Of a stretch of DNA of 31,906 bases, positions 260-25,695 are shown piece after piece. Below the pieces are notes generated by a model. It worked only from the letters and a program-made list of their open reading frames with translations, did not search any database and was not told the origin of the DNA. Location: the IMG/VR virus record IMGVR_UViG_3300010391_002385, positions 1 through 31,906 of that record, one strand, 5' to 3'. Origin of the DNA: a virus. Every line of letters begins with the position of its first letter. Within the stretch, counting starts at the first letter, position 1. Made by a program: the position numbers and the translations under genes.

Positions 260-3200
260 CTACAAATCCTCCTCCGCCTCGCTCTGCTGGGCCGCTCGAA
301 TCTCCGCTTCCATGCCTGGAATCAAAGACATGGCCCAGTTGCGGATGGCGGGCTCCGAATCGCGGGCCCAGTTGCGGATCCACTCCAAGTGGCCCGCATG
401 CCAGCTACTGACTTCGCCGGAGAACACGCCTGTGTGCATTCGCGCTAGGAGCGACGAGCGGATGGTCTTTGAGTCGGAAAATTGGATGAGCAGTTTGCGT
501 TGCACTTCGGATAGCTCCGGGCCCACCGCTGTCAGCTCAATAACATCCGTGGCTCCCTGTTCGCCATGCTCTTCCACCCATTGTTCAACGACCTCCATGG
601 GGATCACGCCAAGGAGTCGTCCCCCGAGTGACGATTGAAGACTCAAGCGCGATTTCCACCCTGATGAGTAGCTCTCCATGACGAGCTGCCAAACCTTGGC
701 CGGCTTGCGACGTGCCGCGTCCACAAGCACCTCCACACGTTCATCACGTTCGGAGATGTACCCCGCGCCGGCAAAGGCTTCCAGCGTCGCGGCGGCGACT
801 CGCACTGGATCAGCCTCGAGCAGTAGCTTGGCCAGGCGGCTCCAGTTGAACGGGCCCATTTGGTCATCGTTTTCTGACGCTGTGGCCTCGAGAACCTTCC
901 AAAGGGAGTCTCCGAACGCGTCCCTCTCTTCAGGCGTTGGGCGCAGACGCATGCCAAGGAGGCTGAGCGCGGTCTGATACGCCTCGCGGGAGTCGCGGGC
1001 GACGAGGGCGTCAACGATCGCCACCGCGCCTGGTTGCGTTGTCTTTCCAATCCAGTTGCCGTAGATCAGAATGCCCGCCTGCTGCGGCCCCAACGCGTTC
1101 TCACGGATCATTTCAGCAATCAGCATCGCGGCCTGCTCGGAGGGCTCTGAACGCCAGAGCGCGTCGAGTGCAGATCCAGACGTTCGTGGATCCCGTGAAA
1201 GCAATCCAATGCGTTGCCAGACCCAGTCTCCCCTTCCAGCTCGTCTATGACCTTCCAGCGCCGCCGACCACTGTGGTGTCGGGCGCTCATCAAGCGTCTC
1301 TGCACCCAACACGCTCTCAAGACGGGCTGTGTACTCAAGCCCGGCGTCAAGCTCACCCAATCTGACGAAGAACTGCCAAAAGCGCTGGGCATGAGGTGAA
1401 ACAAGCCACGCCCACTCGCGCTCCAAGAGGGACTTATCGTTCCAGGCCTCATCGGCGAGTTCCCGTCCTCGTCGCTCCAGTTGGCCGGGATCCTCAATCT
1501 CCAGCTTATGATCCTCTGGACTGGGTTTGCCCAGCCAGCGACGGAGTTGAGCTGAGTAGTCACCGACCAACGCCGAATCTCGCAAGGCCTCAAGCGCGGT
1601 GACAACCGTGCCAGGTAGATCGTCGCGATCGTATGCAAGTACAGCCCCAATGGCCCCGGCAGCCCGGGCCTTGAACTCGCTGTCGGCAGTGCTCAAGAGC
1701 CTGCGCATCATTACGAGGGCGGGATCGCCAACCGCCCCGATGATCATTCGAAAGTTCTCGGTGAAATGATCCAGGGCACGAGTACCAATGGGGGCGGCTT
1801 CGGCGGCGGCCCGCTCCAGCAGCGCAAAGGCCTTTGTCATTGCACCACGTAGCTCACCGACGGTACGAGGTCTCCACTCATCTGGTAGCGGCTTGCCTCC
1901 GAGGCTATCCATCACTGAGCCGCGAGATACATGCGACTCAAAGGCATGCAGCAAGCCTTCTAGGGCCAGTTCACGGCGGCGAGGAGACTGGCGCAAGTCG
2001 AAGAGGATGCGCTCAAGGAGCGCCAGGCGGTCAAGGCTTGGAACAGCGGTGCCGCTCAGATAGGGACGGAAGAGCTGGTGCCAGATGCCAGTGGCGTTGT
2101 TCGAATATCGCTCGTTCTCGGCCTCGGCCAAGGCGAGGAGGAGCCGTGCGGAGCCTTCGAACGTATCGGGCAACCAGACGAGCTTCTCAAGTGTGGCAAC
2201 AACATCGCGACGGCCACCGTTGAGACCGAGTAGTTCCGCGACCGTGGCAGAACCAAGGAGGCGTTCAAGCATGGCGAGGCCAGCGACCGGATGCGCCTCG
2301 GTCAGATAGCGCGCGAGCTTACTGCGCGTGGGAACGTACAGATCCGCTCGGTCGCCAAAGATGTCGGCGGCATTCAGCATCCCACCGACAATGTCACGAG
2401 TACGCTCATCGTCACCAAGACTTGCGAGACGCCGCAAAAAGCGTTCGCGAGCATTCTCTGTGGGCAATGCGACATAGAAACTGAGCAAGTCACTGGCTGG
2501 CCGGCGCCCCCACAACTGTGCAGCCAGACGGATAGCGAGGATCTCGGGCGTAACATAGACGAAAGATCCTCGTTTCTGCACCACGCGGGTTGAAGTGGCG
2601 GCGTCCAAGCGGTCGCGCATTGTGTTCGGCGTTAGACCTACGAAAGCCGCAGTCTTCTCGAGTTCATCCCGACGAGCGTCATCAACAGGGAGGTGCGTGA
2701 ACAAAGAAGCCCCGGACAGGGCACTGAGCGTATCTGCATCCGGCGCCCCAAGTAGCCCATCCAGAAACTCTTTGACGCCTTCGGTGTCGGCGAGTTGCGC
2801 TGGGATGAGAGCTGGATTGACCGCGTAGTTACGTGCGATCTGGACGGCAGCTCGAATAAACCCTGAGGCAAGTCGTGCAACAAGCGCACGCGTTTCATTT
2901 GAGAGCGACGGCGCGGCCGCGGTGACTATTGGCTCAAGCTGGGCAGGCGCTGCCGTATCCAAATAGTACCGACCCGGGGGTGCGCCGATGATGCGTGGTC
3001 CATCTCCAATTGTCACAAGCTGCAGGCGTCCACCACAAGGCGTGACGTGGGTGCTAAAGGTAGCCACCTGGTCGGCATCACACTCGTCAATTACCAGAAT
3101 AGCTTCGGCGCGAGCCTGACGACGCATCCACCCAAGGAAGCCGGTGGGCACATCCTTGGGGGACGGAGCAAAGACAACCAGGGGCCGCAATTCGGTCGCG

Positions 3201-3898
3201 GAAACGGCCTCCAAAGCTAATCGCGTCTTCCCGACCCCTGATAGGCCCTCGATTCTGGAGACAGGATTGCCGTGGTGCCGCCCGGTGAAGTCGTCGCTCA
3301 GCTGCGCCATGAATTCACGCTGCTGGTCAGTTGGCTCAAACGCGGGTCGGTCGCGCTCTGCGGCCGCCCATTCGTTGTACGTCATCAGATCACCGAGTGG
3401 ATGGCCAAAATACGTCGGCGCAACAGAAAGGTGAGTGCTGGCCCATCGAGCGACATCGTCTCCAGTTAGAACCACACCGCGACCGGCGAAGCCGTGTGCT
3501 GCCAGCGCACTCTCGAGCGCCTGCTCGAACTCGACGCGTGGCTGTTGGGTGCTTTCGCGGCTTAGGGCTAGGACGTAGCGTGCACCGCCTCCCAAAGCGG
3601 CGATGACGAGAGGATGGTCCGCGATCTCACTCTCAATTGCAGCGGGACGAAAGTTGCCGCTCTTGAACTGCCAGACGGATTCCCCTTGAGGGATCCAATC
3701 AGGGTTGGTCGCGCCGGCCTTGATGCTGGCGTCAATTCCGCCGTCGGGCGTGTGTTGCTTCCAGCTCAAGTCGAGGTCGCTGGGCGGAATCCCGGCCCTC
3801 TGGGCCTCAAGCGCAAGAAGCGCGTTGAGGACCAGAACGAACGCAGGGTCGCCCAGGTCTGCAACTTCCTTCGGCCTCACCTCAAATGGAACGGTCAT
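260..3898 (-). CDS. Nuclease-STAND ATPase, Avs-like antiphage protein
   Basis: A 1212-residue cytoplasmic protein with no signal peptide or TM segment. Residues about 1-190 look like a PD-(D/E)XK nuclease of the Mrr/Cap4 type: GGID with D56, then a strand with the Q-x-K signature WQFKSG (Q77, K79). A P-loop follows at 218-225 (GLSGVGKT) with Walker B ILVIDE (D271, E272) and a following strand LQLVTIGDG, as in STAND ATPases. The remaining ~850 residues are helical, rich in Leu/Ala/Glu, and probably form the sensor. Known Avs proteins bind a phage protein through this region, oligomerise, and switch on the N-terminal effector. That role here is inferred from architecture. The start is the ATG at 3896-3898; I see no strong Shine-Dalgarno. 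The upstream gap holds a tRNA-Glu scrap, suggesting arrival on a tRNA-targeting element. Alternative: an ATP-regulated restriction enzyme of another STAND family. Confidence 0.75.
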   Translation of the reverse strand: MTVPFEVRPKEVADLGDPAFVLVLNALLALEAQRAGIPPSDLDLSWKQHTPDGGIDASIKAGATNPDWIPQGESVWQFKSGNFRPAAIESEIADHPLVIAALGGGARYVLALSRESTQQPRVEFEQALESALAAHGFAGRGVVLTGDDVARWASTHLSVAPTYFGHPLGDLMTYNEWAAAERDRPAFEPTDQQREFMAQLSDDFTGRHHGNPVSRIEGLSGVGKTRLALEAVSATELRPLVVFAPSPKDVPTGFLGWMRRQARAEAILVIDECDADQVATFSTHVTPCGGRLQLVTIGDGPRIIGAPPGRYYLDTAAPAQLEPIVTAAAPSLSNETRALVARLASGFIRAAVQIARNYAVNPALIPAQLADTEGVKEFLDGLLGAPDADTLSALSGASLFTHLPVDDARRDELEKTAAFVGLTPNTMRDRLDAATSTRVVQKRGSFVYVTPEILAIRLAAQLWGRRPASDLLSFYVALPTENARERFLRRLASLGDDERTRDIVGGMLNAADIFGDRADLYVPTRSKLARYLTEAHPVAGLAMLERLLGSATVAELLGLNGGRRDVVATLEKLVWLPDTFEGSARLLLALAEAENERYSNNATGIWHQLFRPYLSGTAVPSLDRLALLERILFDLRQSPRRRELALEGLLHAFESHVSRGSVMDSLGGKPLPDEWRPRTVGELRGAMTKAFALLERAAAEAAPIGTRALDHFTENFRMIIGAVGDPALVMMRRLLSTADSEFKARAAGAIGAVLAYDRDDLPGTVVTALEALRDSALVGDYSAQLRRWLGKPSPEDHKLEIEDPGQLERRGRELADEAWNDKSLLEREWAWLVSPHAQRFWQFFVRLGELDAGLEYTARLESVLGAETLDERPTPQWSAALEGHRRAGRGDWVWQRIGLLSRDPRTSGSALDALWRSEPSEQAAMLIAEMIRENALGPQQAGILIYGNWIGKTTQPGAVAIVDALVARDSREAYQTALSLLGMRLRPTPEERDAFGDSLWKVLEATASENDDQMGPFNWSRLAKLLLEADPVRVAAATLEAFAGAGYISERDERVEVLVDAARRKPAKVWQLVMESYSSGWKSRLSLQSSLGGRLLGVIPMEVVEQWVEEHGEQGATDVIELTAVGPELSEVQRKLLIQFSDSKTIRSSLLARMHTGVFSGEVSSWHAGHLEWIRNWARDSEPAIRNWAMSLIPGMEAEIRAAQQSEAEEDL

Positions 3899-4039
3899 CC
3901 AGGCAGGATAGCAAGTTGGGAAGATCCGTAAAGATCGGCTCGGTCTGAAGATCCAGTGTGCGCTCGGACTTCGTCGAGTATTGTTCAGACCGCGATCAGG
4001 AAGCTCCGAGCCAGCGACCCGCTCGCCGGTGCGGCGCCT

Positions 4040-4091
4040 TGTCCCTCAATTGTCCCCGAACTGTCCCCGTCCTGCGTCTACTCCCGTCCAC
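4040..4091. repeat. GTCC-core repeats phased at 10-11 bp
   Basis: On the plus strand TGTCCC or TGTCCCC occurs at 4040, 4051 and 4062, an exact 11-bp step. Weaker GTCTAC (4076) and GTCCAC (4086) follow at a 10-bp step. One face of the helix is therefore marked repeatedly. The array lies about 85 bp from the tRNA-Glu remnant. Similar arrays lie near the Ser/Cys and Arg tRNA remnants. Integrase arm-type sites are one possible reading. An alternative is the degraded 3' end of a lost integrase gene. Confidence 0.5.
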
Positions 4092-4176: not shown

Positions 4177-4199
4177 TTCGAATCCCGTTGGGGACGCCA
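4177..4199 (+). pseudogene. tRNA-Glu 3' fragment (T-loop to CCA)
   Basis: The 23 bases match the end of a bacterial tRNA-Glu. The T-loop TTCGAAT (4177-4183) is followed by the 3' T-stem CCCGT (4184-4188), the 3' acceptor strand TGGGGAC (4189-4195), discriminator G and encoded CCA (4197-4199). Immediately 5' the similarity stops: the base before the T-loop is C instead of the invariant G53, and no 5' T-stem, anticodon arm or D arm can be built. A break at the T-loop is typical of the far-end attachment site left by an element that integrated into a tRNA gene. The tRNA-like identity is clear; the isotype is assigned from the acceptor sequence. Confidence 0.75.
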
Positions 4200-4379
4200 A
4201 GGCCGTCCACCGAAACGGGGCAACTCCATGATGGTCCAACCTACGTGTCGGCCTTCGAGTCCGGCTCGCTTCCGCACCTAACCTGTTGAACCTACACTAT
4301 CTTTCCACTGGAGCCACCGGTTCATAACGCCGCCCGGTTCGAGTTGGATAGGGACTCCGAGCTAATGGGTCCTAGTGAC

Positions 4380-7300
4380 TCATTGGAGGTCCGGCGGACC
4401 GGGGGGGATCGTAAGGACGTGAGCCTCGGCATCCAATCTCTTGGGATCGGCTGGGAAACCTGCTAGCAGCCACAGCGGCTCTGCGGCTAACAACTGCCCG
4501 GATCCCTCCCGCCAACACTTCTCCAACCACTCCACCATGCTGAGGTTGATCCGATGAGCGGTCGAAGCCTGATCAAGCCTCGTACCGGGCCAGTCACCCG
4601 CCCCCTCAATGTTCCATCGCCAAAGGTCGAGCGTCTCGCCGATCGCCTTCCCTTCAACGTTCACCGATCCCGGGCCGATCGAAGCTGCAGCTCGCAGACC
4701 CAGCCAGAGTTGCCTCTGCCATTGCTGCACGATCTTGGCTTCCGGGCGATGCGGTACGAGTGACGGTAGTTGGCCAATCCGATCCCACGGCGCGTGGACC
4801 AAGATCGTGCGATCAACCGTCCAGCCTGCAAGCTGGGAAGTTCCGAGCAATTGAACCGCGGCACTGAGTTCTTGATCATTTAGAACCTCAGCGCGTGAGA
4901 ACGGCGCTTCTAATCGCACGGAAATGCATGCATGCCAGAAGTAACGAATGATCCGCGGCGGCTGATGAATCGCAATCGTGCCGAGTGCGCCTGCGAGCGA
5001 GAACAATGACGCCGACTGCAAGGCCGTCTCCAACCACGCATCCGTGCAAACTCTATCGAGCAGCCCGACAAGATCGGTTTCCTGATCAGGCGTAGTCAGG
5101 GCAAGGAGACGGGACATTTCGATTAGCGCGCTCCTAGGATCGCTGAAGTCGACCAGCGCCTTGCGACGGAGGAGGTTGTCGACGAGCGCGACCTTTAGAT
5201 CCTCGCGCCCATTGCGACCGAATTGGCCTGCCAATCCAGGAGCGCCCGTTGAGAAGCGGTTGGTCCGATACGGTCCATACGCCCAATCTTCCACCCTTAG
5301 CCTTTGGATGATAGCCCTCCGGAGTTCCTCCGGAGCGAGCACGAGGAAGCTCATCAGACTGCCAGGGCTCTGCGTGGAGGCCCGCGCGGCCAAGCGGTCG
5401 GGCTGCGCCGAAACGGCGCGCCACACGCCCTCGATCGCCTCGCTTTGGTCCTGCTGTGCCGCCAAGAGCAAGAACCCGCGCAAATCGCTAATCGATGATG
5501 CCAGTACGCACTCTACGAGCCGCTCTGGGCTTGCACCGATGAGCTTCCAGAGTGTCTCGACAACTTCTCTTGAGACTTGCTGCTCGGCGACTTTCAAGAA
5601 CTGAACAAGGGTGTTGAGCGTAGACGAGAACACGCGCATGGCCAGCATTTCCGGTTGCGCCACAGATGCCTTCCATACTCGGGCGACCAATTCCCTCCGC
5701 CCCTGCTGTCCGGCGGACACCAACAGAAGTGCGAGATTGTTGAGCGGGAGAGCGAACGCGTACTCCACAAACCTATCCGGTTGCGCCGCCATCGCTCCCC
5801 ACAACCTATCGACCAGCTGGCTCCGACCCTCGCTTCCGGCCGTGTTGAGGAATCGAGCCACAAGATGCAGCGGATTCTCAAGCGCACGCTCCACTAGGTC
5901 CGGCTGCGCCTCCAGAGCCCGCCACATTTCTTCCGCCATCTCAGCTTTCCCCGCCTTCCGCGCCGCAACGATGAAGTCGGCCAAGGGATCCAGCGGTGTC
6001 TCAGATGCAGCCTGGGCGAGCATCGCTGGTTGTGCCGCGATTTGCGTCCACACCCTGTCTACAAGTCCCTGTTGGCCCTGGTCCTTCGCGATGTTTATGA
6101 ACTTGAGAAAGAAATGCAGGTGGGCCGAGAGTGCCCGCTCTGCCACCTTCTCCGGCTGCGCCGCCAGCGCTTCCCACAACCCATCGACAAGCTGGCTCCG
6201 TCGCTGCTTCCTAGCCGTGTCCAGGAATGCCGCCACCCTATTCAACGGATTCTCAAATGCGCGTTCGACGAGCCGCTCAGGTTGTGATTCCAGCGCCGCC
6301 CAGAGTCCCTTGGCCAGCTCGTTGCGCCCCGCTTCTCGGGCCGCGACAATGAACTCGGCTACCCAGTCTAGCGGCGTAACGAATGCGGCCTCCGCAACTT
6401 TTACTGGTCGCGCCGCAAACTGCTCCCACAGCTGCTCCACAAGCGGCTGTTGCCCTCGATCTGCCGCGGTGTTCAGGAACCTGACAACGATGTGTAGGTC
6501 TCCCGAGAGCGCCTGCTCTGCCAGCTTCTCCGGTTGCGCCCCTAAAGCTCGCCACAGCTTATCAACGAATCGACCACGCCCCTCGTTCTCTGCCGCTTTC
6601 AGGAATGCCGCCACCGGACCCAGCGGAGCCTCGAGAGCGCGCTCAGTCAGCCGGTCTGAGTAAGCTGGCATCTCGAGTCCTCTCCAAAGCATCGCGTATT
6701 GCTCCGTGGTCTCCACACCCTTCAGCCTCGACGCGATCGTCGCGGCAAAGAGGATGCTATTTGAAGCGGCGTTGAGGATGATCCCGTTACGGTCCGGCGG
6801 TGTTGCGAGAGCCGCCAGAATCAACCGTCCCCACTCAGGTTCACGCAGCCTGTACCGCGAGTAACGACCTGCGACCAACACATGCTGGACTAGGCCCGTC
6901 TCCTGTAACCGACCAACTTCAGCCGGATTCGGCAAGCACTCCACCGGAACATCCAGCTCCAACCCCTGCTCGCCGAGCACCGCGAGACAGACTGCGTTCG
7001 CGAGTTCCGAGCCGTTCAGGCGGCGTAGATGACGGGCTCTGACCCATTGGGCGGCGGCGGACGCAGGCAGCGTGAAGTCGCCGCGGCTCAGCTGAAAGCG
7101 ACGCTGAGAGACCGCGACCACGAAGGCGCCCATCTCTCGGCCGAACGTCTCGTGCCAGGCCGCTATCGCATCTGGTGGCGGAGCGAGAGCCGCAGCCGAC
7201 AAGCCGAGACGTCTTAGAACATAGAGAGCGATTGGCAGCAGATCTGCCGGCGACGGACGAAGTTGAACGGCCGGATTCTCAGGGTAGGTCTCAAGATCGT

Positions 7301-8696
7301 AAAGGCTCGACTCGCCTGGCAGGTTGACGGGATGACCTATGCGGGTTGCGAGCAACATCAACTTACTGCCCGTCGGTCGCTCGCGCCATTGCTGCCACAG
7401 TGTGTGCGCGAGTTCAGGCTGCAGGTTTGCGTCGTCGATTATGAGAAGCACGCCTTGGCGCGCGAGACGAGAAACGGCAGATTGTGGACTGACGCTCACC
7501 GCAAGGTTATCGTCGCCGAAGATATCGCTCAGCAGCAGATGATAAGCCGGCTTGCCCCGGTATTCGGGCCGGGCGGCAATTCGATAGGCAAGTGTGGTCT
7601 TTCCCACGGAGGCGGTGTCGAGCACGAAAGCCCAGCCGTGCACGTCAAGCCGCCGAAGCACTTCCTCGTCGGCCGCCAGAGCCGGCACCTCGCCATCGAT
7701 GAACTCCTGCCACGACGGGAACGGGCTCGCCAGGGGTGACTCATCCACCCGCCGCAACCGTCGCCCACTTGGCCCCACCCTCTCGAAGGGGGCGCAGCGG
7801 GCCTCCGGGGTCAATTCCCGAAGCAAGCCGGGCAGCTCCGTATGATCCCCATACGCATGCGTCGTCAAGTTGGTCGACCGGACCACCGGGGCGGGCAGAC
7901 TCCCAATGGTCGCATGCGCTGTGAGGAAGAAGCTACGCATGGCGCTCTCGCCGAGGCCCACCTCACGGCCCCACTGAAGCAAAGCGCCGAAATTTGGATC
8001 CGCCAGTCCGCCGCCGCAGCCCAGATAGAGCCAGTGCCAGTGCAACCAGAGATGACGAAGCTCGGTCTGCGCCAATGCTACCTCCTTGATGCGGTCGTAG
8101 GAGGTGCGCCCGAGGACGATGGAGGATGGCCGACTCCAATGCCCATGGATGTGGATGACTGCCTTACACTGCCGATTGACCACTTCAATAATTCGGGCAG
8201 GTTCCTCCCAGGTGACGAAGTCGAACCCGGTGGCCTCGCAAAGTAGGTTGTCGTAATTGGTCGTGAGAATTAGTGCCCCAGCTCTGGCGAGATCGGCGAT
8301 AGCATCGAGTGTCAGTCGATCGTTGGGATTCGTAGTGAGTGAGCCAACCGAGTCCTTCAGCCAGGCTGCGAAGCGGGGGTCGTCGGCCCCCCCGAATCGC
8401 TCAATCATTGACTCCGCGCGCCTTAGGATCTCATCAAGCTTAAACTCGCCCGAGAACGCCTCCTCGATCAAGACGCGCTCCGATGCCAGGACCTCGGGGC
8501 CCTGGACGCCGAAGCTCTCAATCCTCGAGAGCCCGTCGAGGAGCAGCCCCTTCCAGCTGGCTCGCGGATCCGCGGTCGCGCCGATCGAGACACCTGTGCC
8601 GACCATGATGAGCACGCTCGGCTTCGGATCGTCGAAGAGCCGTTGTAGAGGTTTCAAGCTGTCCGGCAGACGGGTGCTCACGGGCGTTGCCCGCAT
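4380..8696 (-). CDS. SIR2-STAND ATPase with 42-aa repeats (Avs5-like layout)
   Basis: A 1438-residue cytoplasmic protein. Residues about 25-300 form a SIR2-like domain: GTGVS (33-37), TTNYDN (145-150) and the catalytic-type HGH (184-186). In defence proteins this fold hydrolyses NAD+ to starve the infected cell. A P-loop follows at 360-367, but it begins with Asp (DTASVGKT) where Gly is usual. Walker B is LLIIDD (D421, D422). Residues 682-1100 are ten tandem 42-residue helical repeats, listed separately. The last ~340 residues are unassigned. The order effector, STAND ATPase, repeats matches SIR2-carrying Avs proteins, so phage sensing followed by NAD+ depletion is the inferred job. The ATG at 8696 lacks a clear Shine-Dalgarno; a GTG five codons in is possible. 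The gene stands alone between broken tRNA genes, consistent with separate acquisition. Confidence 0.82.
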   Translation of the reverse strand: MRATPVSTRLPDSLKPLQRLFDDPKPSVLIMVGTGVSIGATADPRASWKGLLLDGLSRIESFGVQGPEVLASERVLIEEAFSGEFKLDEILRRAESMIERFGGADDPRFAAWLKDSVGSLTTNPNDRLTLDAIADLARAGALILTTNYDNLLCEATGFDFVTWEEPARIIEVVNRQCKAVIHIHGHWSRPSSIVLGRTSYDRIKEVALAQTELRHLWLHWHWLYLGCGGGLADPNFGALLQWGREVGLGESAMRSFFLTAHATIGSLPAPVVRSTNLTTHAYGDHTELPGLLRELTPEARCAPFERVGPSGRRLRRVDESPLASPFPSWQEFIDGEVPALAADEEVLRRLDVHGWAFVLDTASVGKTTLAYRIAARPEYRGKPAYHLLLSDIFGDDNLAVSVSPQSAVSRLARQGVLLIIDDANLQPELAHTLWQQWRERPTGSKLMLLATRIGHPVNLPGESSLYDLETYPENPAVQLRPSPADLLPIALYVLRRLGLSAAALAPPPDAIAAWHETFGREMGAFVVAVSQRRFQLSRGDFTLPASAAAQWVRARHLRRLNGSELANAVCLAVLGEQGLELDVPVECLPNPAEVGRLQETGLVQHVLVAGRYSRYRLREPEWGRLILAALATPPDRNGIILNAASNSILFAATIASRLKGVETTEQYAMLWRGLEMPAYSDRLTERALEAPLGPVAAFLKAAENEGRGRFVDKLWRALGAQPEKLAEQALSGDLHIVVRFLNTAADRGQQPLVEQLWEQFAARPVKVAEAAFVTPLDWVAEFIVAAREAGRNELAKGLWAALESQPERLVERAFENPLNRVAAFLDTARKQRRSQLVDGLWEALAAQPEKVAERALSAHLHFFLKFINIAKDQGQQGLVDRVWTQIAAQPAMLAQAASETPLDPLADFIVAARKAGKAEMAEEMWRALEAQPDLVERALENPLHLVARFLNTAGSEGRSQLVDRLWGAMAAQPDRFVEYAFALPLNNLALLLVSAGQQGRRELVARVWKASVAQPEMLAMRVFSSTLNTLVQFLKVAEQQVSREVVETLWKLIGASPERLVECVLASSISDLRGFLLLAAQQDQSEAIEGVWRAVSAQPDRLAARASTQSPGSLMSFLVLAPEELRRAIIQRLRVEDWAYGPYRTNRFSTGAPGLAGQFGRNGREDLKVALVDNLLRRKALVDFSDPRSALIEMSRLLALTTPDQETDLVGLLDRVCTDAWLETALQSASLFSLAGALGTIAIHQPPRIIRYFWHACISVRLEAPFSRAEVLNDQELSAAVQLLGTSQLAGWTVDRTILVHAPWDRIGQLPSLVPHRPEAKIVQQWQRQLWLGLRAAASIGPGSVNVEGKAIGETLDLWRWNIEGAGDWPGTRLDQASTAHRINLSMVEWLEKCWREGSGQLLAAEPLWLLAGFPADPKRLDAEAHVLTIPPGPPDLQ
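5397..6653 (-). repeat. Ten tandem 42-aa repeats within the SIR2-STAND gene
   Basis: Codons 682-1100 encode ten units of 126 bp (unit 7 is one codon shorter). Each unit has hydrophobic L/V at 2, A at 6, L at 11, F/L at 17, A at 21, W at 34 and usually P at 41 with the signature AQPE or AQPD. The pattern fits a helical hairpin solenoid. Units do not diverge evenly. Units 2, 3, 4 pair with units 5, 6, 7 respectively (by hand count 22/42, 24/42 and 28/41 identical), and unit 1 resembles 4 and 7. A three-unit block was therefore duplicated as a whole. The DNA still shows it: nearly the same 30-mer occurs at 5794 and 6169, 375 bp apart. Confidence 0.9.
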
Positions 8697-9035
8697 CTAG
8701 GTCGGGAATGTGCTCGGCACCGCTCGGAGGCGAGGAAGGACACTATTCGACGATACGGCAAGCACAACGGCCGTGCCAGCGTGGAGAATGTCGGGACACG
8801 AGGGTGCCTCGACAGCGCCGGAGCGCGACGCTTCATCGCCCGTTTCGATCCCGCCGAATGGTGTGGCGCTCGTCCGAAGCCGTGGTGCTGCCTGAGCAAC
8901 GCGGATGCGCCCAATCCGTGACGCGCACAGTCACCCGGGGAATGCACTCAACTAGCCTGCGCGCGGGTACCGCTCGGGTACCACCTCAAGGTCCATTCCC
9001 GAACTCTGGTGGCTGCTCCTGGACATCAAGACGAA
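8697..9035. other. Gap upstream of the SIR2-STAND gene
   Basis: No supported gene. This stretch must contain the promoter and leader of the minus-strand SIR2-STAND gene, but I could not pick convincing -35/-10 boxes. CGGGTACC occurs twice in close succession near 8964 and 8975. Open frames on both strands here have no recognisable protein features. Confidence 0.4.
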
Positions 9036-9059
9036 GCCCCCGGGATCGCTCCCAGGGGC
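9036..9059 (-). terminator. Hairpin downstream of the tRNA-Ser remnant
   Basis: A 10-bp stem (9036-9045 with 9050-9059) closes a GCGA tetraloop when read on the minus strand; its single non-Watson-Crick pair is G-U on that strand but C-A on the plus strand. It lies about 40 bases beyond the CCA end of the tRNA-Ser fragment, where a tRNA terminator would sit. The T-run after it is weak, so termination is likely but not certain. Confidence 0.55.
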
Positions 9060-9096
9060 TCGAAATAGGCAGTTTCCTTGGCTTTGGCGCGAAATG

Positions 9097-9144
9097 TGGC
9101 GGAGAGGGAGGGAGTCGAACTTTTCGAGACCGTTCGATTCAACC
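9097..9144 (-). pseudogene. Rearranged tRNA-Ser(CGA) remnant
   Basis: Read on the minus strand, 9144 to 9121 gives the end of a D arm and the 5' anticodon stem and loop of a tRNA-Ser, with loop CTCGAAA (anticodon CGA). It then jumps straight to the T-loop, GTTCGACTCCC, and continues through the acceptor CCTCTCC, G and CCA, ending at 9097. The 3' anticodon stem, the long variable arm and the 5' T-stem are missing. The first ~15 bases of the tRNA (acceptor 5' strand, start of D arm) are also absent. A functional tRNA is impossible. The breakpoints, after position 38-39 and before about 53, are the two places where tRNA-targeting integrases usually cut. Confidence 0.7.
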
Positions 9145-9236
9145 TCCTGCCGACAGTCCGCCCGGCGGGTTGGAAGGGGCCCATGCGACCCTCGCCATCG
9201 TCTGCTACAACTTGCTACGGTCTCAACTTCCTCGGG

Positions 9237-9266
9237 AGTCCTCTCGTGTCCCCTCATGTCCCCTCA
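9237..9266. repeat. Tandem TGTCCCCTCA repeats
   Basis: The 10-mer TGTCCCCTCA is present as two perfect tandem copies (9247-9256 and 9257-9266), preceded by a degenerate copy AGTCCTCTCG (9237-9246), so the period is exactly 10 bp. The array sits between the tRNA-Ser and tRNA-Cys remnants. It shares its core with the arrays at 4040 and 11,722. Helical phasing suggests a protein-binding array such as integrase arm sites; that is inference. Confidence 0.55.
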
Positions 9267-9366
9267 AAGGACATCGCCCCTGCGGGGATAAACCGCTGGG
9301 GCGATTGGCTATCGGTCTGTGGCGATATCGCTTGCGGGCTCGGCGTTGAAGAATATTGCGCCGACA

Positions 9367-9403
9367 TTTGCAGACCCTCGCCTTACCACTTGGCTATGCC
9401 GCC
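9367..9403 (-). pseudogene. tRNA-Cys 5' half, broken after the anticodon loop
   Basis: On the minus strand 9403-9397 is an acceptor strand GGCGGCA, then TA, then a D arm closed by GCC/GGC around AAGTGGTAA, G26, a 5' anticodon stem AGGGT, and the loop CTGCAAA (anticodon GCA, Cys) at 9373-9367. The following bases TGTCGG cannot pair with AGGGT, and no T arm or CCA follows. Identity ends exactly at position 38. This is half of a cysteine tRNA gene. Confidence 0.75.
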
Positions 9404-9460
9404 TCGGGGGCGACGGAAGGTAGCACCTAGCCAAGAGAACGGGCAAGCGACCGTCGGCTT

Positions 9461-9622
9461 CCGGGAGAATCGACTCGGACCCTGCGAACGGATCTTGTTC
9501 AGTCGGGCGCGTTCATCCCAACCAGGCTCGGCGTCACGCTACCGCCCGAGCAGCTCGACGAGCTTGAGTTGGCGGTGCGGAAGCTGCGGGAGCTGGGGGC
9601 CCGAGAGACCCCGCAGGCCTGA
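9461..9622 (+). pseudogene. N-terminally truncated PC4-like fragment
   Basis: An open plus-strand frame ends with TGA at 9620-9622 and lacks any good start codon; the frame is closed upstream by TAG at 9428. Its last ~40 residues, from GAFIPTRLGVTLPPEQLDEL onward, match the C-terminal pattern of small PC4/p15-type single-stranded DNA-binding proteins (f-PT-kGv-lp-e, then a helix). The expected N-terminal beta strands are missing or out of frame. I read it as a remnant cut by the rearrangement next to the tRNA-Cys half. Family assignment is from memory of the motif. Confidence 0.4.
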
Positions 9623-9768
9623 GCAACGCGCCCGGCAGCCCGCTGTGCCAAGAGCTGCCGGTGCCGGCGAACCTCGCGTGGGGCATTCACGAAACCATCA
9701 GCCTTTGGCGCCACCCGAGCGTGATGCCTCTGAGCGGGATGCTGCGGCGCCCCGACCAGGAGCTTTAG
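9619..9768 (+). CDS. Possible 49-aa small protein, coupled to PC4 remnant
   Basis: A short plus-strand frame begins at a CTG overlapping the TGA of the PC4-like fragment and runs to TAG at 9766-9768. It reads SNAPGSPLCQELPVP and includes a hydrophobic/Trp stretch (LAWGIHETISLWRH). Its stop overlaps the stop of the convergent two-TM gene by four bases. No ATG, GTG or TTG with a Shine-Dalgarno is available, so it may be the tail of a larger broken gene. I recognise no family. Confidence 0.25.
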   Translation: MSNAPGSPLCQELPVPANLAWGIHETISLWRHPSVMPLSGMLRRPDQEL

Positions 9769-10550
9769 GGTGCTTCTTCTCTCTCCTCGCCCCGGAGCTC
9801 CATTGCGATGTCCGGGTGCTCCTTCTCGAAGAGCGGCGCCAGGTCGTTCCCAACGCGCTTGCGAATGCCGGGGATATCCCACCGCCGCCGCAGTTCACCG
9901 ACCTCACGGTGGAACTCGTCGATCTCGTCGAGGACAGGCGCTAGCGCAAACGACGTCATCAGCGCCCGGCTGTTCGCCGAGATCTCCCCCAAACTCTGGA
10001 CGATTCCGAGCTTCTGCATGTCATCGCTCACCTTGATGCCAGGGTGGTCAGCCAAGGCCTCCAGATTCGCCTGTAGACGATTGAGCCAGCGCAGTTCTCG
10101 CACTTTGAAATACCGGCTGTAGGTGAGCGTGAGCGTTCGGAGCCACCCAGCCTGATAACGGTACTCCGGTCCTTTCTTCCGAAGCAGCTCGATGACGTCT
10201 GGGAGCATGCCGTGCCTGGCAACTAGCATCACGTCGTGACCCGCACTGATGCAGACGAGGACCGGCCAGTACGTCTCCGTGCCGAGAAACGCCTGAATGG
10301 CCCGTTTACGGCGCGCAGCCCGAACCGCGCGACGGGCCTCCAGTGCCCTCTCCTGGGCCTTTTGTGCCCGCTTCTCATACCTTGCGATCAGGATGTTAAC
10401 GGCGGCGATTGCAAGTGCCGTGGTCGCGAGGTTACAGACCAGGCTTGGGACCCACAGCTCGGGACGATACTGGTTGAATGCTACGGTGATCGTCGCCGCA
10501 ATCACGACCAGCACGCCAACGACTATGTAGATAACACGGTTGAGAGTCAT
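9765..10550 (-). CDS. Two-TM membrane protein of unknown function
   Basis: A 261-residue protein. Two hydrophobic segments near the N-terminus (about 5-26 and 35-54) form a membrane hairpin. A strongly basic, Ala/Arg/Glu-rich coiled-coil-like stretch follows (58-85), then a ~175-residue cytoplasmic domain ending in a charged helical tail. No catalytic motif is recognisable. The ATG at 10550 is preceded by a weak Shine-Dalgarno (CAGGGA). The gene lies in a defence island between the SIR2-STAND gene and an Mrr-type nuclease, 135 bp downstream of the latter on the same strand, so a membrane-effector role is conceivable. That is inference from position and topology only. A small hypothetical membrane protein unrelated to defence is the alternative. 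Confidence 0.6.
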   Translation of the reverse strand: MTLNRVIYIVVGVLVVIAATITVAFNQYRPELWVPSLVCNLATTALAIAAVNILIARYEKRAQKAQERALEARRAVRAARRKRAIQAFLGTETYWPVLVCISAGHDVMLVARHGMLPDVIELLRKKGPEYRYQAGWLRTLTLTYSRYFKVRELRWLNRLQANLEALADHPGIKVSDDMQKLGIVQSLGEISANSRALMTSFALAPVLDEIDEFHREVGELRRRWDIPGIRKRVGNDLAPLFEKEHPDIAMELRGEEREEAP

Positions 10551-10685
10551 GCAGTCCCTGACTGGACAAGATACGCGAGGGATTTCGGCAGGAGATGCCT
10601 TACAGGCTAGATTCGCCGGATAACCGCCTGAGACCGCCGCTCCTACATCTTGCCGCCAGTCGGTGAGGATGCTCCCATTGATGCC

Positions 10686-11666
10686 CTACTCTGTTCGCAT
10701 CAGGACTAGCCAGCGTTCGAGCGTTTCGCGCTCCGCAGCACGAATCGGGTACTCGCGGCTCGCACAAACCTCACGCGCCCCAGGCGACAAGCGCTGCGTC
10801 GTAACAATGACACCTGAGTCCGCCTGCTCGAACTGAACGTCCGACCACAGGGCCTTCACTACAACTTTCTCCACGGCCCGCTTTACCCTCTTGCATTGGA
10901 CGAGCATGGTGGGCGGGCCATGTTCCGCTGCCTCAGAAGCCCACGTCCGAGCATCAATACCGCCGTCATTCCGGCCAGCACCCAACACAACATGCAACCC
11001 GGTCCTCGCGAAGTACTCTCCAGTCAAACCCTCGAACTTGCGCCAGTGCATCTTGTCTAGACCCACTGGATTCGCGCTCAGGTAGTCAATGAAACGCTGA
11101 TCGAGGAAGCGCCCATACTTGGTGGCGAGCGACTCGCTCTCGAAGAGCTCCCACAATGGCAAGGTATCGTCGTACGCACGCTTGCGATACCCTGACCATG
11201 GGCTTGAGTGTAGATCGTCGATTACGAGATCCGAATACTCTGCGGCCAAATCGTCAGCGTCGCCCCCCAGCTTGGCGTGCACCAATTCTTGGAACGACGA
11301 GAGGGGGTCGCTGGGGCCTTCTTCAAGTCTCCAGACTTCAACGATTTCCGCGAAGAGGGAGTCAACACGCTGCGCCAATGCGAGCCGCTCAGGCTGACTG
11401 CTGTATCTGCTCCTTATCACAGCCCCAGGATTGTAGGGTCCTGGACCGGCGAGCGATCCAAGGCGATAGAGAAGCTTAGCAGCCAGACGCTCAAAGTTAT
11501 GCGGCGTCAGGTGGAGTTCTTCGTCGTCGGCCCGTAGCAGTAGGTCGTCATGCTCGGGTAGGTGATCCAAGAGGTCCCACTCATCAACCCAAAGCCCTGA
11601 CTTGTGGCGTGCGACGTCACACAACGAAGTTACAAGCTCAAGCCGCGTCTCTGCTACGATGCGCAA
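10686..11666 (-). CDS. Stand-alone Mrr-type restriction endonuclease
   Basis: A 326-residue cytoplasmic protein. The C-terminal ~120 residues hold the Mrr catalytic fold: FEGLTGEYFARTGLHV, then GGID with D238, then a strand with Q257-x-K259 (MLVQCKR), followed by VIVTTQRLSPGA, a typical Mrr continuation. The N-terminal 200 residues are acidic and helical with no family I recognise; they may choose the substrate. Mrr proteins cut DNA carrying particular methyl marks. The first codon is TTG at 11664-11666, with GGGAG about 8 bases upstream; no nearby ATG fits better. No cognate methyltransferase adjoins it; the type I operon next door is separated by a broken tRNA-Arg and phased repeats. Either a solitary modification-dependent nuclease or one effector of an unknown set. 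Confidence 0.75.
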   Translation of the reverse strand: MRIVAETRLELVTSLCDVARHKSGLWVDEWDLLDHLPEHDDLLLRADDEELHLTPHNFERLAAKLLYRLGSLAGPGPYNPGAVIRSRYSSQPERLALAQRVDSLFAEIVEVWRLEEGPSDPLSSFQELVHAKLGGDADDLAAEYSDLVIDDLHSSPWSGYRKRAYDDTLPLWELFESESLATKYGRFLDQRFIDYLSANPVGLDKMHWRKFEGLTGEYFARTGLHVVLGAGRNDGGIDARTWASEAAEHGPPTMLVQCKRVKRAVEKVVVKALWSDVQFEQADSGVIVTTQRLSPGAREVCASREYPIRAAERETLERWLVLMRTE

Positions 11667-11721
11667 GAGAGGTCTCCCTGACCGCTGCGCTTCACGGCTA
11701 AGGGTTAGCTACGGCCTCAGC

Positions 11722-11757
11722 GTCCATTCGCGTCCAAGGTGGCCCATTTTAGTCCAT
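11722..11757. repeat. Four GTCCAT-like hexamers at exact 10-bp spacing
   Basis: On the plus strand GTCCAT (11722), GTCCAA (11732), GCCCAT (11742) and GTCCAT (11752) are separated by exactly 10 bp each, with unrelated 4-base spacers. They lie 38 bp from the end of the tRNA-Arg half and 56 bp upstream of the Mrr gene start. They could be integrase arm-type sites left with the tRNA scar, or an operator for the nuclease gene. Confidence 0.6.
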
Positions 11758-11794
11758 AAACAGCAGTAGCCCCAAGAGTTTCGCCCCGGCCACG

Positions 11795-11833
11795 TTAGGA
11801 AACTGCTGCTCAATCCGTCTGAGCTACGGGGCC
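11795..11833 (-). pseudogene. tRNA-Arg(CCU) 5' half, broken after the anticodon loop
   Basis: On the minus strand 11833-11827 reads GGCCCCG (acceptor), then TA, a D arm with GCTC/GAGC closing AGACGGATT, A26, anticodon stem GCAGT and loop TTCCTAA (anticodon CCT) ending at 11795. The next bases CGTGG cannot pair with GCAGT, and there is no T arm. The break is again exactly after position 38. The hsdR stop lies on the other side. Confidence 0.78.
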
Positions 11834-11850: not shown

Positions 11851-14921
<3,071 letters not shown>

Positions 14922-14925
<4 letters not shown>

Positions 14926-15893
14926 GCCCGGACAAGCCCTGGCTTGAGGCCCAGCCGCTCCTGAAACTCAGGCGGGACGTCGTTCCAGTGCTCCACCAGC
15001 AGGTCGACGAGCTGCCTGCCATTGACGAGACCGATGCGAGGGAACCCCTGCTCAAGGGCCACATCCAAGGCAGAGTTCTGGAAGTCAGCCGTAGTGATGA
15101 AGGCGCCCTGACCGCCAAACGGGATCGCCTGGCGCAACTGACGGACGATCTTCGCGGAGATCTTTGAGCCGATCTGGTACCGCTTAGCCTGAACAAACAC
15201 CTTCACCTTCGCGAGGTTTCCAACGTTCAGCTCACCCGTCGCATCCACACCCCCATCGCCGGTCTTGCCGGTGACCTCGGAGCCCTCGAATCCCAGGGCG
15301 GTCAACAGGTGCCCTGCCAAGATCTCGAACTCTTTGTCGTCCAGCTGGAGCACCTGCTCCAGGACGGCGCGGTACGGGTCGTAGCTGGCCGCTTCAGGGG
15401 TCGGCACCAAGTCTCTGCGCCCGATGGCAGCGAGGAACTCGTCACGCTGGGACACGGCGAACACGGTGAGCGACGAACGAATCGTGTTCTGGAAAGGCAC
15501 CGAGAAACCGCTTCGCTTGAGCGCCTCCTTCACCCACTCAACACGCCTGCGGTGGCGGTAGGGGCAGCCATCGTCTCCAGCCGCGTACATGTACGAGGGA
15601 TCGGGCGCGAGTCGGCCGTAGTGCAGCAGTTCGGTGTCTGCTGCAGGCGTGATGACGTAGTCGCCGGCCTGCATCTCGAGCAGGAACCGAGCGATCTGTC
15701 CGACCTGCTGGCCGACGACGATGTTGCTCGTGTCCTCAGGGTGCGCCGCCCGGTAGAGCGGATACAGCTCGTCGCGGGAACTGACCTGGGAGAGGTCCGT
15801 GCTCGGCATCCACCCAATTGCGACGTAGCCGCCACCGACGAAGTGCTGCGCGTAGGTACCGAACGCGGCGCGGACGCACCAGACGTTGCTCAT
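14922..15893 (-). CDS. Mrr-type nuclease with PUA/EVE-like N-terminus, inside the type I operon
   Basis: A 323-residue protein starting at the ATG 15891-15893, which overlaps the hsdS stop; its own stop overlaps the hsdR start. The N-terminal ~150 residues start [13 protein letters not shown], continue YVAIGW and contain GDYVITP, resembling PUA/EVE-like domains that read modified bases in some nucleases. The C-terminal half is an Mrr catalytic domain: [24 protein letters not shown] (D217), VFVQAKRY (Q235, K237) and GAFITTADF. It may cut modified DNA that the type I enzyme cannot, giving one operon with two opposite specificities. That is inferred. A longer frame upstream of 15893 lies within hsdS and is not used. 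Confidence 0.85.
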
Positions 15894-17176
15894 GCGGTGG
15901 CCCGCTTCACGACACGCGCGCCGTCGGGCACGCGCAGTTCGCCGGAGATGAGCTTGGGCAGCACCGTGTCTCGAAGAGCGGCGAGGGCGCGGGACTGCAC
16001 GTCGCGGCGCCACGTGCTCTCCAGGATAGGCTGGATGTGCGAATCGATCGCGCGCAGCAGCTCTTTCCCAGGGACTGGCAACCTGGCAGCCGACAGGTGA
16101 CCGCGCTGGATATGGCCCATTGTGGTCGCCTTCCCAGCTGCGATGTGCCGGAAGTCGTCCAGGTACTCATGTATCCCAAGGTAGCAAAGCCACCTTGGAT
16201 ATGTGGCCGACGTTACCTTGAACAGATGCTGATTCAGTGCACCCCTTCCACCAGCCCAGAGCACGCACTCTAGCGAGCCAGACCACGAGAATAGGATGTC
16301 CCCATCTTGAACGATGTAGTCGGCCTCGAGGTCAGCACTCGCACGGTCGGCGCCATTGGTGTTGCCCGCACGAAGTTGAGCGATCTTGATGACCGGCAGC
16401 GATCGCCCGTCGATAGCTGGGTACTTCTGCAACGCCAAACCATTAAGAAAGCACGCGATCTCATCGAGGCTCTTGACCTCCCACCCCTTTGGAATCTCTC
16501 CCAGATCCGAATCCTCGAACGAGTCTGGGAACAGGTCGGCGAGGGGCTTGGGCACGCCAGGATCGCGGCCTTCGGCCTTGGCGCGAATGGGGTCAAAGTC
16601 CACGAACCAGGACTTGAACAGCGCCCTCGCGATAGCCTCGAGTGTCTCGTTCATCCGCCGGTTCAGGTCGATCCTCGCGGACAGTTCAAAGTAGATATCG
16701 CCGATGAGCTCCTGGACGGTGCGACTCGGAACCGGCAACAACAGCTTGTCGAAGTCGCCCTTCTTGAAGTGGGGAATGAGTGTTCCCACGTGCATCTGCC
16801 GGATCTTCTCTTGGACGATTGGCGAACGTAGGGCCGCAAATAGGTACTTTGGATAGATCTTCCGCGGATCGGCTCGCACTGCGACCATGTCCTGAGCGAT
16901 GCAGAAGTCCACTGGATCGGGAACGAGACAGACACGACCGGGAGTCGCCTTGTTCACAAATAGGATGTCGCCCGGCCTTGGATGGCCGCGAAACCACGTC
17001 AGGTATGTCTGCTGCGAGACAAGGCGCACCTTTTCGTAGGTCGGGTACAGGAGTTCATTGCGGACGCAGTTCGTCGCGATGAGTGGGATGCCCCCATCCG
17101 CTGTCGGGCAAGTCCTTCCGCGATTGTCTATGATTTCGCAGAGGAGTTCTGAGAACGGCATCTCCTCAACTCGCAT
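15890..17176 (-). CDS. hsdS: Type I restriction-modification specificity subunit
   Basis: A 428-residue protein with two target-recognition domains. TRD1 is about 1-150 ([24 protein letters not shown]). A conserved helical spacer follows ([24 protein letters not shown]). TRD2 is about 220-380 ([29 protein letters not shown]), then a second spacer with [11 protein letters not shown]. HsdS sets the DNA sequence for both methylation and cleavage. ATG 17176 was chosen because AAGGAA lies about 8 bases upstream; a TTG two codons earlier is also open. The gene overlaps the end of hsdM by about 11 nt and the Mrr-type gene by 4 nt. I cannot deduce the target site. Confidence 0.94.
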
Positions 17177-18764
17177 GCCCAAGTTCCTTCAGGCGTTCGG
17201 CGATGGCGGCGTCCAGCTGGGCCCCTTCCGCCTGCTGCTGGCGCAGCGTCGCAGTAAGCCGCTTCACCTTCTCCTTCAATGGCTCGCCATCCTCCTCTGC
17301 CGCTTCAGCGCCCACATAGCGGCCGGGCGTGAGCACGTGGCCGTGCTTGCGAATGTCGTGGAGTTTCGCCGACATGCAGAACCCGGGCACGTCGCTGTAC
17401 TTGCCCGCGCCCTTATCGCCGCGCCAGCCATGGTACGTCCCTGCGATCTCGGTAATGTCCGCGCTAGTCAGCTCCGCGTGTACGCGGTCGATCATCGAAC
17501 CCATCTTGCTTGCGTCGATGAACAGCGTCTCGCCTCGTCGGTCGCGGAAGCGGCCGTTCTTCTTGTTTCGCGCCATGAACCACAGGCAGACAGGGATCTG
17601 GGTCGAATAGAAAAGCTGGCTCGGCAGGGCCACCATGCAGTCCACGACGTCGGCCTCGATCATGGCCTTGCGAATCTCGCCCTCGCCTGACTGATTCGAG
17701 GCCATCGAGCCGTTGGCAAGCACGAAGCCCGCGAGCCCGGTGGGTGCAAGGTGGTGGATGAAGTGCTGCACCCAGGCGAAGTTCGCGTTCCCAGCAGGCG
17801 GAACACCGTACTTCCACCGCAGGTCCTCGCGCAGACGGTCACCGCCCCAGTCGCTGTCGTTGAAGGGCGGGTTGGCGAGCACGTAATCCGCCTTCAGGTC
17901 CTTATGGAGATCTCGGTGAAAGCTGTCCGCGTGCTCCGGTCCGAGGTTCGCGTCGATGCCACGGATGGCCAGGTTCATCTTGGCCAGGCGCCAAGTCGTT
18001 GCGTTCGACTCCTGTCCATAGACCGCGATGTCTCCGATCCTCCCGCCATGGACCTCCACGAACCTCTCGCTCTGAACGAACATCCCGCCTGATCCGCAGC
18101 AGGGGTCGTAGACGCGGCCCTTGTAGGGCGCGAGAATCTCGACGAGCACCTGTACCACGCAGCGCGGCGTGTAGAACTGCCCGCCCTTCTTGCCCTCGGC
18201 GCTCGCGAACTGGGAGAGGAAGTATTCGTAGACGCGACCCAGAATGTCCTTCGAGCGGTTCTCCTTGTCTCCGAGGCCAATCGTGCCTATAAGGTCGATC
18301 AGTTCGCCGAGGCGCTGCTTGTCGAGATCTGGTCTCGCGAAGTTCTTGGGCAGGGTGCCCTTGAGTGAGGGGTTCTCGCGCTCGATGGCCACCATAGCGT
18401 CGTCGATGACCTTCCCGATTGTCGGCTGCTTTGCCTGGCCCTGGAGCACCGGCCAACGCGACCCCTTCGGCACCCAGAACACGTTCTTGGCCGTGTACTC
18501 GTCGCGATCCTCGACGACGGCCTGTCGTGAGCGGGCGTCCTTGACGTAGAGGTCGCTCCTCGGGTTCGCAGCCTCCCGCTCGAGTAAGGAGTGGTGCTCT
18601 CCGAAGGCGTCCGAGATGTACTTGAGGAAGATCAGACCGAGCACGACGTGCTTGTACTCGGCCGCGTCCATGTTATTGCGGAGCTTGTCGGCGGCCTGCC
18701 ATAGGGTGGCCTCGAACCCCAGGGCGGCGGCCGAGCCGCTGTTCTTCTTCGGCTTCTTCGGCAT
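17166..18764 (-). CDS. hsdM: Type I DNA N6-adenine methyltransferase subunit
   Basis: A 532-residue methyltransferase. The N-terminal helical domain ([20 protein letters not shown]) is typical of HsdM. The SAM-binding motif I is [10 protein letters not shown] (220-229) and the catalytic motif IV is NPPF (298-301), giving m6A. The motif GGQFYTP precedes motif I, as usual. The start is the ATG 18762-18764 (MPKKPKKN); the open frame upstream of it is not family-like. Shine-Dalgarno is weak. It is the first gene of the operon; HsdM2S methylates alone and recruits HsdR for restriction. Confidence 0.96.
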
Positions 18765-18979
18765 GGCGGGGGGCTCCCGGTAGGAGGCGGGCTCGGACCG
18801 CTTGGAAACTAGCACGGCCCCGGCGGAACACGAAGAATAGCCGGAGCTTGCTGGACCAAGAAGGCATGACGCCTTGGGTCTTGCTCGCGAGCTTCCGCAG
18901 GGCGGGTAGGCCGGCTCTTCCTGCTGGAGCCACGCGCACGAGGGGCGCTGGCTTCATGAGGGGATCGTGCCCAGGAGCC
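18765..18979. other. Gap upstream of hsdM
   Basis: No gene supported. This must hold the hsdM promoter on the minus strand. A 15-base stretch at 18795-18809 on the plus strand resembles a serine tRNA anticodon arm, but it has no D arm, so I do not call it a tRNA remnant. Confidence 0.35.
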
Positions 18980-19103: not shown

Positions 19104-19246
19104 CCTGCCCTAGTGTCTTGCTCTCTCTTTGCCGACCATGCCCCGGTGTGGCAGCATCTGGCTGGGTCCGCTTCAGCCGGCTCACGGAAGTGTCGATATC
19201 CCCCCTATCGCGCGCCTCTTACTTCCGACAGAGAGAGAATTCGATC

Positions 19247-20348: not shown

Positions 20349-20382
20349 GGACACTACCCGCTAGTCCAGCTCGGACACTACC
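20349..20382. repeat. Two GGACACTACC direct repeats at the defence/phage junction
   Basis: GGACACTACC occurs at 20349-20358 and 20373-20382, starts 24 bp apart, exactly in the 40-bp gap between the toxin gene and the terminase gene; the second overlaps the terminase stop codon. The intervening bases contain CTAG. They may be an IS end, a deletion scar or a recombination junction. Confidence 0.5.
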
Positions 20383-22231: not shown

Positions 22232-22233
22232 GG

Positions 22234-25598: not shown

Positions 25599-25614
25599 GA
25601 CGACCTCCCTGTCA

Positions 25615-25695
25615 GTGGCAACCTGGCAACCTGATAGTTGCCACCCCGACAGCCCCCCGCAACGACTTGCGGGGGGAAAAGTGGCAACTGGCAAC
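25615..25695. repeat. GTGGCAAC iterons flanking a GC-rich hairpin
   Basis: GTGGCAAC (25615), CTGGCAAC (25623), inverted GTTGCCAC (25637), then a perfect 10-bp hairpin CCCCCCGCAA/TTGCGGGGGG with CGAC loop (25653-25676), then GTGGCAAC (25681) and CTGGCAAC (25688). Two direct copies flank each side of the hairpin. The array lies just upstream of the methyltransferase and downstream of the primase-helicase gene. It could be a replication origin, an operator for the methyltransferase, or a terminator with binding sites. No proper T-run follows the hairpin on the minus strand. Confidence 0.75.

Follow-up and report, generated by a model that had tools for sequence, protein, structure and literature searches.

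Four different tRNA gene ends among the defence genes of a phage-derived element as likely fossil attachment sites

A viral DNA stretch of 31,906 nucleotides (IMG/VR virus record IMGVR_UViG_3300010391_002385, positions 1 to 31,906; hereafter the window) carries, among its defence genes, incomplete pieces of four different transfer RNA (tRNA) genes, namely those for Arg, Cys, Ser and Glu. We consider these pieces, at a probability of about 0.62, to be fossil attachment sites that persist in the cargo region of an element derived from a phage, in which the integration module has been swapped. The pieces end at characteristic tRNA positions, a large serine integrase is encoded in the window while no tyrosine integrase is detectable, and in a related phage the Arg half lies behind the gene for the large terminase subunit (terL). 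Moreover, both the integrase class and the tRNA target differ among relatives of the element.

The two 5' halves provide the firmest evidence. The tRNA-Arg(CCT) half, a candidate core of an old phage attachment site (attP), lies at 11795..11833 (-), and the tRNA-Cys(GCA) half at 9367..9403 (-). In a BLAST comparison with 185 collected tRNAs, the Arg half matched tRNA letters 1-39 with 94.9% identity over 39 nt, and the Cys half matched letters 1-37 with 97.3% identity over 37 nt (E 5.5e-9 for each). The anticodon begins at letter 35 of the Arg tRNA and at letter 33 of the Cys tRNA, so both halves span standard positions 1-38 and terminate at position 38. A profile built from 81 5' halves, from which the close matches are absent although a different Cys tRNA and a different Arg(CCT) tRNA are represented, ranked the same two places first in the window (Cys E 1.9e-4, Arg E 6.3e-4), with the third match at 1.7. 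The Arg pattern, with at most one mismatch, is present in 5 of 200 Pseudomonadota genomes, none of which has the spelling found in the window.

The two 3' pieces are shorter. The tRNA-Ser piece (9097..9120, -) comprises 24 nt from position 53 through CCA, and the tRNA-Glu piece (4177..4199, +) comprises 23 nt from position 54 through CCA and is identical to a tRNA-Glu(TTC) of one genome (G012). With up to two mismatches, half of the Pseudomonadota genomes searched (50/100) contain the Glu 23-mer and 85/100 contain the Ser 24-mer, while the reversed patterns occurred in none (0/100 each). When the loci fetched with these words were analyzed by ARAGORN, 19 of 20 were tRNA-Glu and 19 of 20 were tRNA-Ser, respectively. 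These genome word searches and their reversed controls, and not a model of the T-arm, are the reason for accepting the 3' pieces. A 24-letter scan of the window, in which both pieces reached 23/24, was discounted because its reference set included tRNAs fetched with these very words.

Thus, the four pieces are real and beyond chance, firmly so for the 5' halves and reasonably so for the 3' ends. BLAST, profile and genome word searches together confirm the places and ends given in a preliminary description of this DNA, with the added details that the Glu piece lies on the plus strand, that the other three lie on the minus strand, and that the Ser piece has one mismatch to the common tRNA-Ser. 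The view that the breaks coincide with the tRNA sublocations cut by tyrosine integrases also holds: in each case the match to a tRNA end stops at such a crossover point, after position 38 in the 5' halves and at the T-loop in the 3' ends, strongly for Arg and Cys and by way of the genome word searches for Ser and Glu. The tRNA covariance search proposed as a check did not recover the pieces, since Rfam gave no tRNA match at the gathering score, at E 1 over the whole record, or even at E 10 over 3.9-11.9 kb. ARAGORN found no intact tRNA in the window (0), and consequently no cognate intact tRNA gene stands at the other end of the element in this possibly fragmentary record.

The origin of the Arg half is illuminated by its counterparts elsewhere. 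In viral records, the Arg 5'-half pattern occurs in three stretches belonging to two records, G001 (IMGVR_UViG_3300049734_000530) and G002 (IMGVR_UViG_3300037488_002617). The latter is a relative of the window: its ParB-methylase is 60% identical, its small and large terminase subunits (TerS and TerL) are 39% and 44% identical, and the order of these genes is conserved. An HNH gene is also common to both (57%), but it lies on the opposite side of the ParB-methylase gene. In G002, a tyrosine integrase frame (L139:4938-5918, +) follows terL and terminates within the Arg half (L139:5880-5925, +). The integrase stop codon TAA consists of the last anticodon base and positions 37-38, so that the attachment site itself supplies the end of the gene. 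About 9 kb further along there is a portal gene, which places the half inside a phage genome, as would be expected of an attP. Apart from this integrase itself, no relatives of it were found in viral contigs.

In both the window and G002, the Arg half is situated behind terL in matching orientation. As a relative carries the half in the corresponding place, the Arg half of the window is best explained as the lineage's own old attP, and it probably represents the ancestral site. In the window, restriction and toxin-antitoxin-like genes intervene between terL and the half, and no integrase gene ends in it; instead, the stop codon of the type I restriction gene hsdR is located 17 nt upstream. In the other record, G001, a 41-nt half (726) and an intact tRNA-Arg(CCT) gene (13,295) together delimit an element of 12.6 kb. 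Its tyrosine integrase gene terminates 160 bp before the intact tRNA, and paired GTTAGAT repeats occur near both element ends. A type IIG restriction-methylation gene (PADLOC, E 0) begins about 215 bp past the lone half, within L141:726-4308. In both G001 and G002 a promoter-like sequence, which could serve the rebuilt tRNA, precedes the half; by eye, none is evident in the window.

The integration genes of the window fit this history. A search with PF00589 in all six frames gave no match at E 1, and a scan for tyrosine-recombinase motifs gave a single match; it lies at 30798, where the serine integrase is encoded in a different frame, and was judged to be due to chance. The preliminary description had stated that no integrase remains; this is correct for the tyrosine class and does not extend to the serine class, as a large serine integrase frame lies outside the region that it covered, at 30152..31906 (+). 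This frame encodes resolvase, recombinase and zinc-ribbon domains (phrog_95, E 2e-104), is still open at the end of the record, and is likely the present integration module. In the absence of a tyrosine integrase from the element, the Arg, Cys, Ser and Glu sites fit remnants rather than an active site.

On this basis, the pieces are probably scars left by the attachment sites of tRNA-targeting tyrosine integrases. The ancestor would have carried, in a cargo region behind its terminase gene, an attP for tRNA-Arg(CCT), of the type that has the 5' half of the tRNA in common with the target and undergoes crossover in the anticodon loop. Its integrase gene would then have been lost, with restriction cargo replacing it and now occupying its place, and integration is now probably the task of the serine integrase at the opposite end. 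The other three pieces (Cys, Ser and Glu) may have arrived in the same way as the Arg half, as attachment-site remnants of earlier integration modules of the lineage; alternatively, they could be the ends of other tRNA-targeting elements that fused into the cargo region. In either case, the defence genes would have gathered around these remnants.

The position of the halves among defence genes might also suggest a function at the RNA level, with encoded tRNA halves serving as decoys or regulators against defence systems that cut tRNAs. The 5' halves end where anticodon nucleases cut, and this accords with such a role. The T-loop start of the 3' ends does not fit it, and the Arg half marks the boundary of an integrated element in G001 and overlaps the integrase gene in G002. 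Inspection by eye revealed no promoter-like sequence before the Arg half of the window. Taken together, a regulatory function of the halves appears extremely improbable.

Related phages show that integration modules of this kind do vary. Among 28 related records, defined as those sharing TerL or the ParB-methylase with the window, five encode a serine integrase, five a tyrosine integrase, none both, and 18 neither, many of the records being fragments. Models of tRNA halves were applied to 53 of 64 TerL loci and to loci L139-L143, as well as to 76 of 78 additional ParB-methylase loci; 144 loci were covered by a word scan. In the TerL set the half models found G001, G002, G003 and L043. In the ParB-methylase set they found tRNAs that are intact according to ARAGORN in L331, L362 and L387, and 3' parts only in L363, L370 and L341.

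Four relatives therefore carry tRNA 3' parts, all of them terminal or nearly so within the record. In L043 the part belongs to tRNA-Leu and extends from the anticodon loop to CCA (L043:110-170, -), with an 18-bp direct repeat about 210 bp upstream. A tRNA-Glu part from the anticodon loop lies at the record end of L363 (L363:11-60, -) and a tRNA-Leu part from the anticodon loop at that of L370 (L370:1-63, +), while L341 has a T-arm piece of unassigned tRNA (L341:113-147, -); none of these three records has an accompanying intact tRNA. With the exception of L043, these relatives are further from the window than G002 is. The tRNA parts and the integrase classes indicate that this phage group meets several tRNA genes, including Glu, and both classes of integrase.

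Lone 5' halves also occur elsewhere in viral sequences. The Cys 5'-half pattern was found in 31 viral stretches, of which 30 are tRNA-Cys genes according to ARAGORN and one (L030, in G003) is a lone half followed by non-tRNA sequence. Additionally, lone tRNA-Leu(CAA) 5' halves are present in three contigs that are mutually similar at this place (L019:901-942, L020:8585-8626 and L024:815-855), each followed by a tyrosine-recombinase motif at a distance of about 0.9 kb.

The alternation of tRNA pieces and defence genes had led to the proposal, in the preliminary description, that the region was built from small cassettes mobilized by integrases, each adding one defence gene and one tRNA end at a time. 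The Ser and Glu 3' pieces facing the STAND gene from both sides, and the type IIG restriction gene that follows the lone half in G001, are in line with this idea. If it were correct, the same defence genes should be accompanied by the same tRNA pieces in other genomes, and no homologous locus shows such a pairing. Distant homologues are available at six loci, of which four concern Mrr and two the SIR2 portion of the STAND gene, and none of these loci (0/6) has a piece near the gene: neither a tRNA half nor a CCA end of at least 20/24 letters was found, except in L001, which has a tRNA-like gene at a distance of about 8 kb from Mrr.

The homologues themselves are few. Those of Mrr comprise one Bradyrhizobium locus (35%) and six plasmid records (36-48%), three of which were examined, and those of the SIR2-STAND gene comprise one of 299 genomes (25%), in a locus only 3.8 kb long, and three plasmid records that match in part, one of which was examined. 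No relatives of the SIR2-STAND gene were found in viral contigs. The gene for a two-transmembrane protein had no relatives in viral contigs or in 299 Pseudomonadota genomes, a negative result that is weak since it lacks a positive control. No DNA similarity of the 8.7-11.9 kb region to phages and plasmids was found. The test of the cassettes is weak as well, because homologues this distant could hardly have kept their flanks and no close one was available. Nevertheless, with no homologous cassette in evidence, with the Cys and Ser pieces only about 250 bp apart and no gene between them, and with G002 accounting for the Arg half without any cassette, assembly from such units seems quite improbable.

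A related possibility starts from the fossil attachment sites themselves. An old attP may act as a growth point, remaining a recombination target after its module has been changed or lost, so that other tRNA-targeting elements dock there. Defence genes would then have been gained by site-specific recombination, and the tRNA ends would record their order of arrival. We regard this extended account as rather doubtful.

The region could also have formed on a chromosome. Defence islands beside prophages are common, and the left third of the window might be host DNA adjoining a prophage, in which independent tRNA-targeting islands landed and decayed, leaving behind their ends and cargo. Such joining of different islands would be expected to leave four different tRNAs, as observed, and G+C content is 0.59-0.65 over 1-11.7 kb and 0.635 in the restriction genes, lower than the 0.68 of the terminase-primase block. 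On the other hand, the Arg half behind terL in G002 shows that at least this piece fits a phage, and the annotated proteins of the window include no housekeeping gene, just as there is no intact tRNA gene. A chromosomal pile-up of islands is thus an unlikely origin.

Several results weigh against the interpretation of the pieces as fossil attachment sites. No integrase remnant is recognizable beside any of the four pieces, and neither the half models nor the word scan found counterparts of the Cys, Ser and Glu pieces at the matching place in relatives. The record is possibly a fragment. The T-arm model ranked the Glu piece only 19th (E 7.7) and did not include the Ser piece among its 24 matches. 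Against tRNA ends chosen independently of the search words, the two 3' pieces scored 21 and 20 of 24, with the reversed window itself reaching 21.

Three copies of TTGTCC/CTGTCC, phased by 11 bp, lie at 4039..4067 (+), which is 110-138 bp upstream of the Glu piece, and three copies of GTCC[TC]C, phased by 10 bp, lie at 9238..9266 (+), between the Ser piece and the Cys half. TGGAC-like repeats directly 3' of the Arg half (11720..11765, -) were recognized by eye and were not called by the phased-repeat scan. All three groups could be arm-type integrase sites. The scan for three phased hexamers gave three clusters in the window, compared with 0-3 (mean 0.8) in 20 shuffles. With this number within the shuffle range, only the placement is notable: two of the three clusters adjoin tRNA pieces and have GTCC in common. 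The GTCC motif, furthermore, had been noticed before the phased-repeat test was made.

As an integrase marker, three copies of TGTCCC also failed, since a tyrosine-recombinase motif within 600 bp was found at one of 84 loci, compared with about 1% at random; these loci were four from genomes and the first 80 of at least 120 viral stretches. Hence, the phased GTCC repeats give at most weak support to the presence of arm-type sites. A separate idea, that the STAND gene and its inverted flanks form a single transposable unit, was rejected as no convincing inverted repeat was found.

The sequence just past the Arg half offers a further objection, as it allows the pieces to be read as decayed complete tRNA genes once borne by the phage rather than as attachment-site halves. 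A 12-nt stretch located 21 nt past the half fits 11 of 12 letters of the tRNA 3' end and its flank, a fit equalled in 15 of 500 shuffles, and phages with tRNA-dependent lysogeny do carry whole tRNAs (PMC10865867). Beyond the Cys half, however, nothing comparable to a tRNA 3' half exists (492 of 500 shuffles reach the score). Moreover, identity falls abruptly at position 38 in both halves and the 3' pieces have a sharp beginning at the T-loop, which makes gradual decay of whole tRNA genes very improbable.

The remaining genes are consistent with a phage-derived element. Read from right to left, the window encodes the serine integrase, an unknown gene, an excisionase-like helix-turn-helix protein, a D5 primase-helicase (25883-28507) and a ParB-methylase (24060-25796), the latter two forming a block at 24060..28507 (-). 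DUF3800 and HNH-type genes follow, then the terminase subunits, with the gpA-type large subunit at 20378..22750 (-) and the small subunit within 22234-22749. A toxin-antitoxin-like DUF433 and PIN_10 pair (19205..20337, +) separates them from the type I restriction-modification genes (11851..18815, -), which comprise hsdM, hsdS, an Mrr/PDC-S02 gene and hsdR. A second gene of the Mrr type (PDC-S02) is thus found amid the type I genes at 14922-16013 (-), and its open frame overlaps hsdS. Between the type I genes and the toxin-antitoxin-like pair, a frame at 18986-19080 (+) reads YNLVRVHRSLRMTPAMAAGVTERLW, which we take to resemble the end of an insertion sequence (IS)-type transposase.

Further to the left lie the Mrr-type restriction endonuclease gene (10686..11666, -; Mrr_cat, E 1.8e-22) and the gene for the small two-transmembrane protein (9765..10550, -), whose helices were recognized by eye and which had no match in Pfam, PADLOC or NCBIfam. 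The SIR2-domain STAND-like protein (4380..8696, -; SIR2_2, E 3.2e-10) has C-terminal repeats and a P-loop, both recognized by eye, and its SIR2 part resembles PDB chains named FAM118B (E 2.5e-14). The leftmost gene encodes a defence protein similar to PD-Lambda-4_A (260..3898, -; PDLC03991, E 1.4e-43). Capsid genes are absent from the annotated proteins of the window, an absence that proves nothing as the record may be a fragment.

Several known systems resemble this arrangement in part. Tycheposons are islands remodelled by tRNA-targeting elements, which recalls the window, except that the latter has no element in which a tyrosine recombinase is accompanied by its own tRNA. Phage satellites, among them P4-like elements and phage-inducible chromosomal islands (PICI), combine a primase, an integrase and defence cargo in a comparable way; the window differs by its gpA-type terminase, and its relative G002 by a portal gene.

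A closer likeness is provided by the islands collected in Islander. There, crossovers are placed at the anticodon loop or at the T-loop and its junction, and tRNA fragments of both 3' and 5' kinds, ending at these places, mark the ends of elements, as they appear to do here (PMC4383910). Those islands combine an integrase with an intact tRNA and a fragment of that same tRNA, whereas the window has four different fragments and neither an intact tRNA nor a tyrosine integrase. Fragments of the 5' kind were reported there for 159 of 3919 islands (4%), in contrast to two of the four pieces in the window. The same work names Mx8 and SSV as cases of integrase genes that run across attP (PMC4383910), similar to the G002 frame that ends inside the tRNA half and different from the window, where the integrase is gone and hsdR stops short of the half. 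Actinobacteriophages with tRNA-dependent lysogeny are likewise tyrosine-integrase phages at tRNA genes; according to their description (PMC10865867), their sequence in common with the tRNA amounts to only about 10 bp and they bring along a whole tRNA, in contrast to the long halves and the lack of a whole tRNA here. A literature search of limited extent, judged by titles and the openings of abstracts, gave no description of a phage defence region in which several different tRNA ends occur together.

Attachment sites consisting of tRNA 5' halves are known but rare, and four different tRNA ends within 8 kb are unusual and as yet only partly explained. The examples described here add to this rare class: the Arg and Cys halves of the window, the Arg halves of G001 and G002, the lone Cys half of G003, and the Leu(CAA) halves of three contigs that have a tyrosine-recombinase motif nearby. 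The accumulation of defence genes in phages and islands is under active study. With readable integration scars, and with a relative that retains both the integrase and its site, the gain of single defence genes becomes open to dating and testing.

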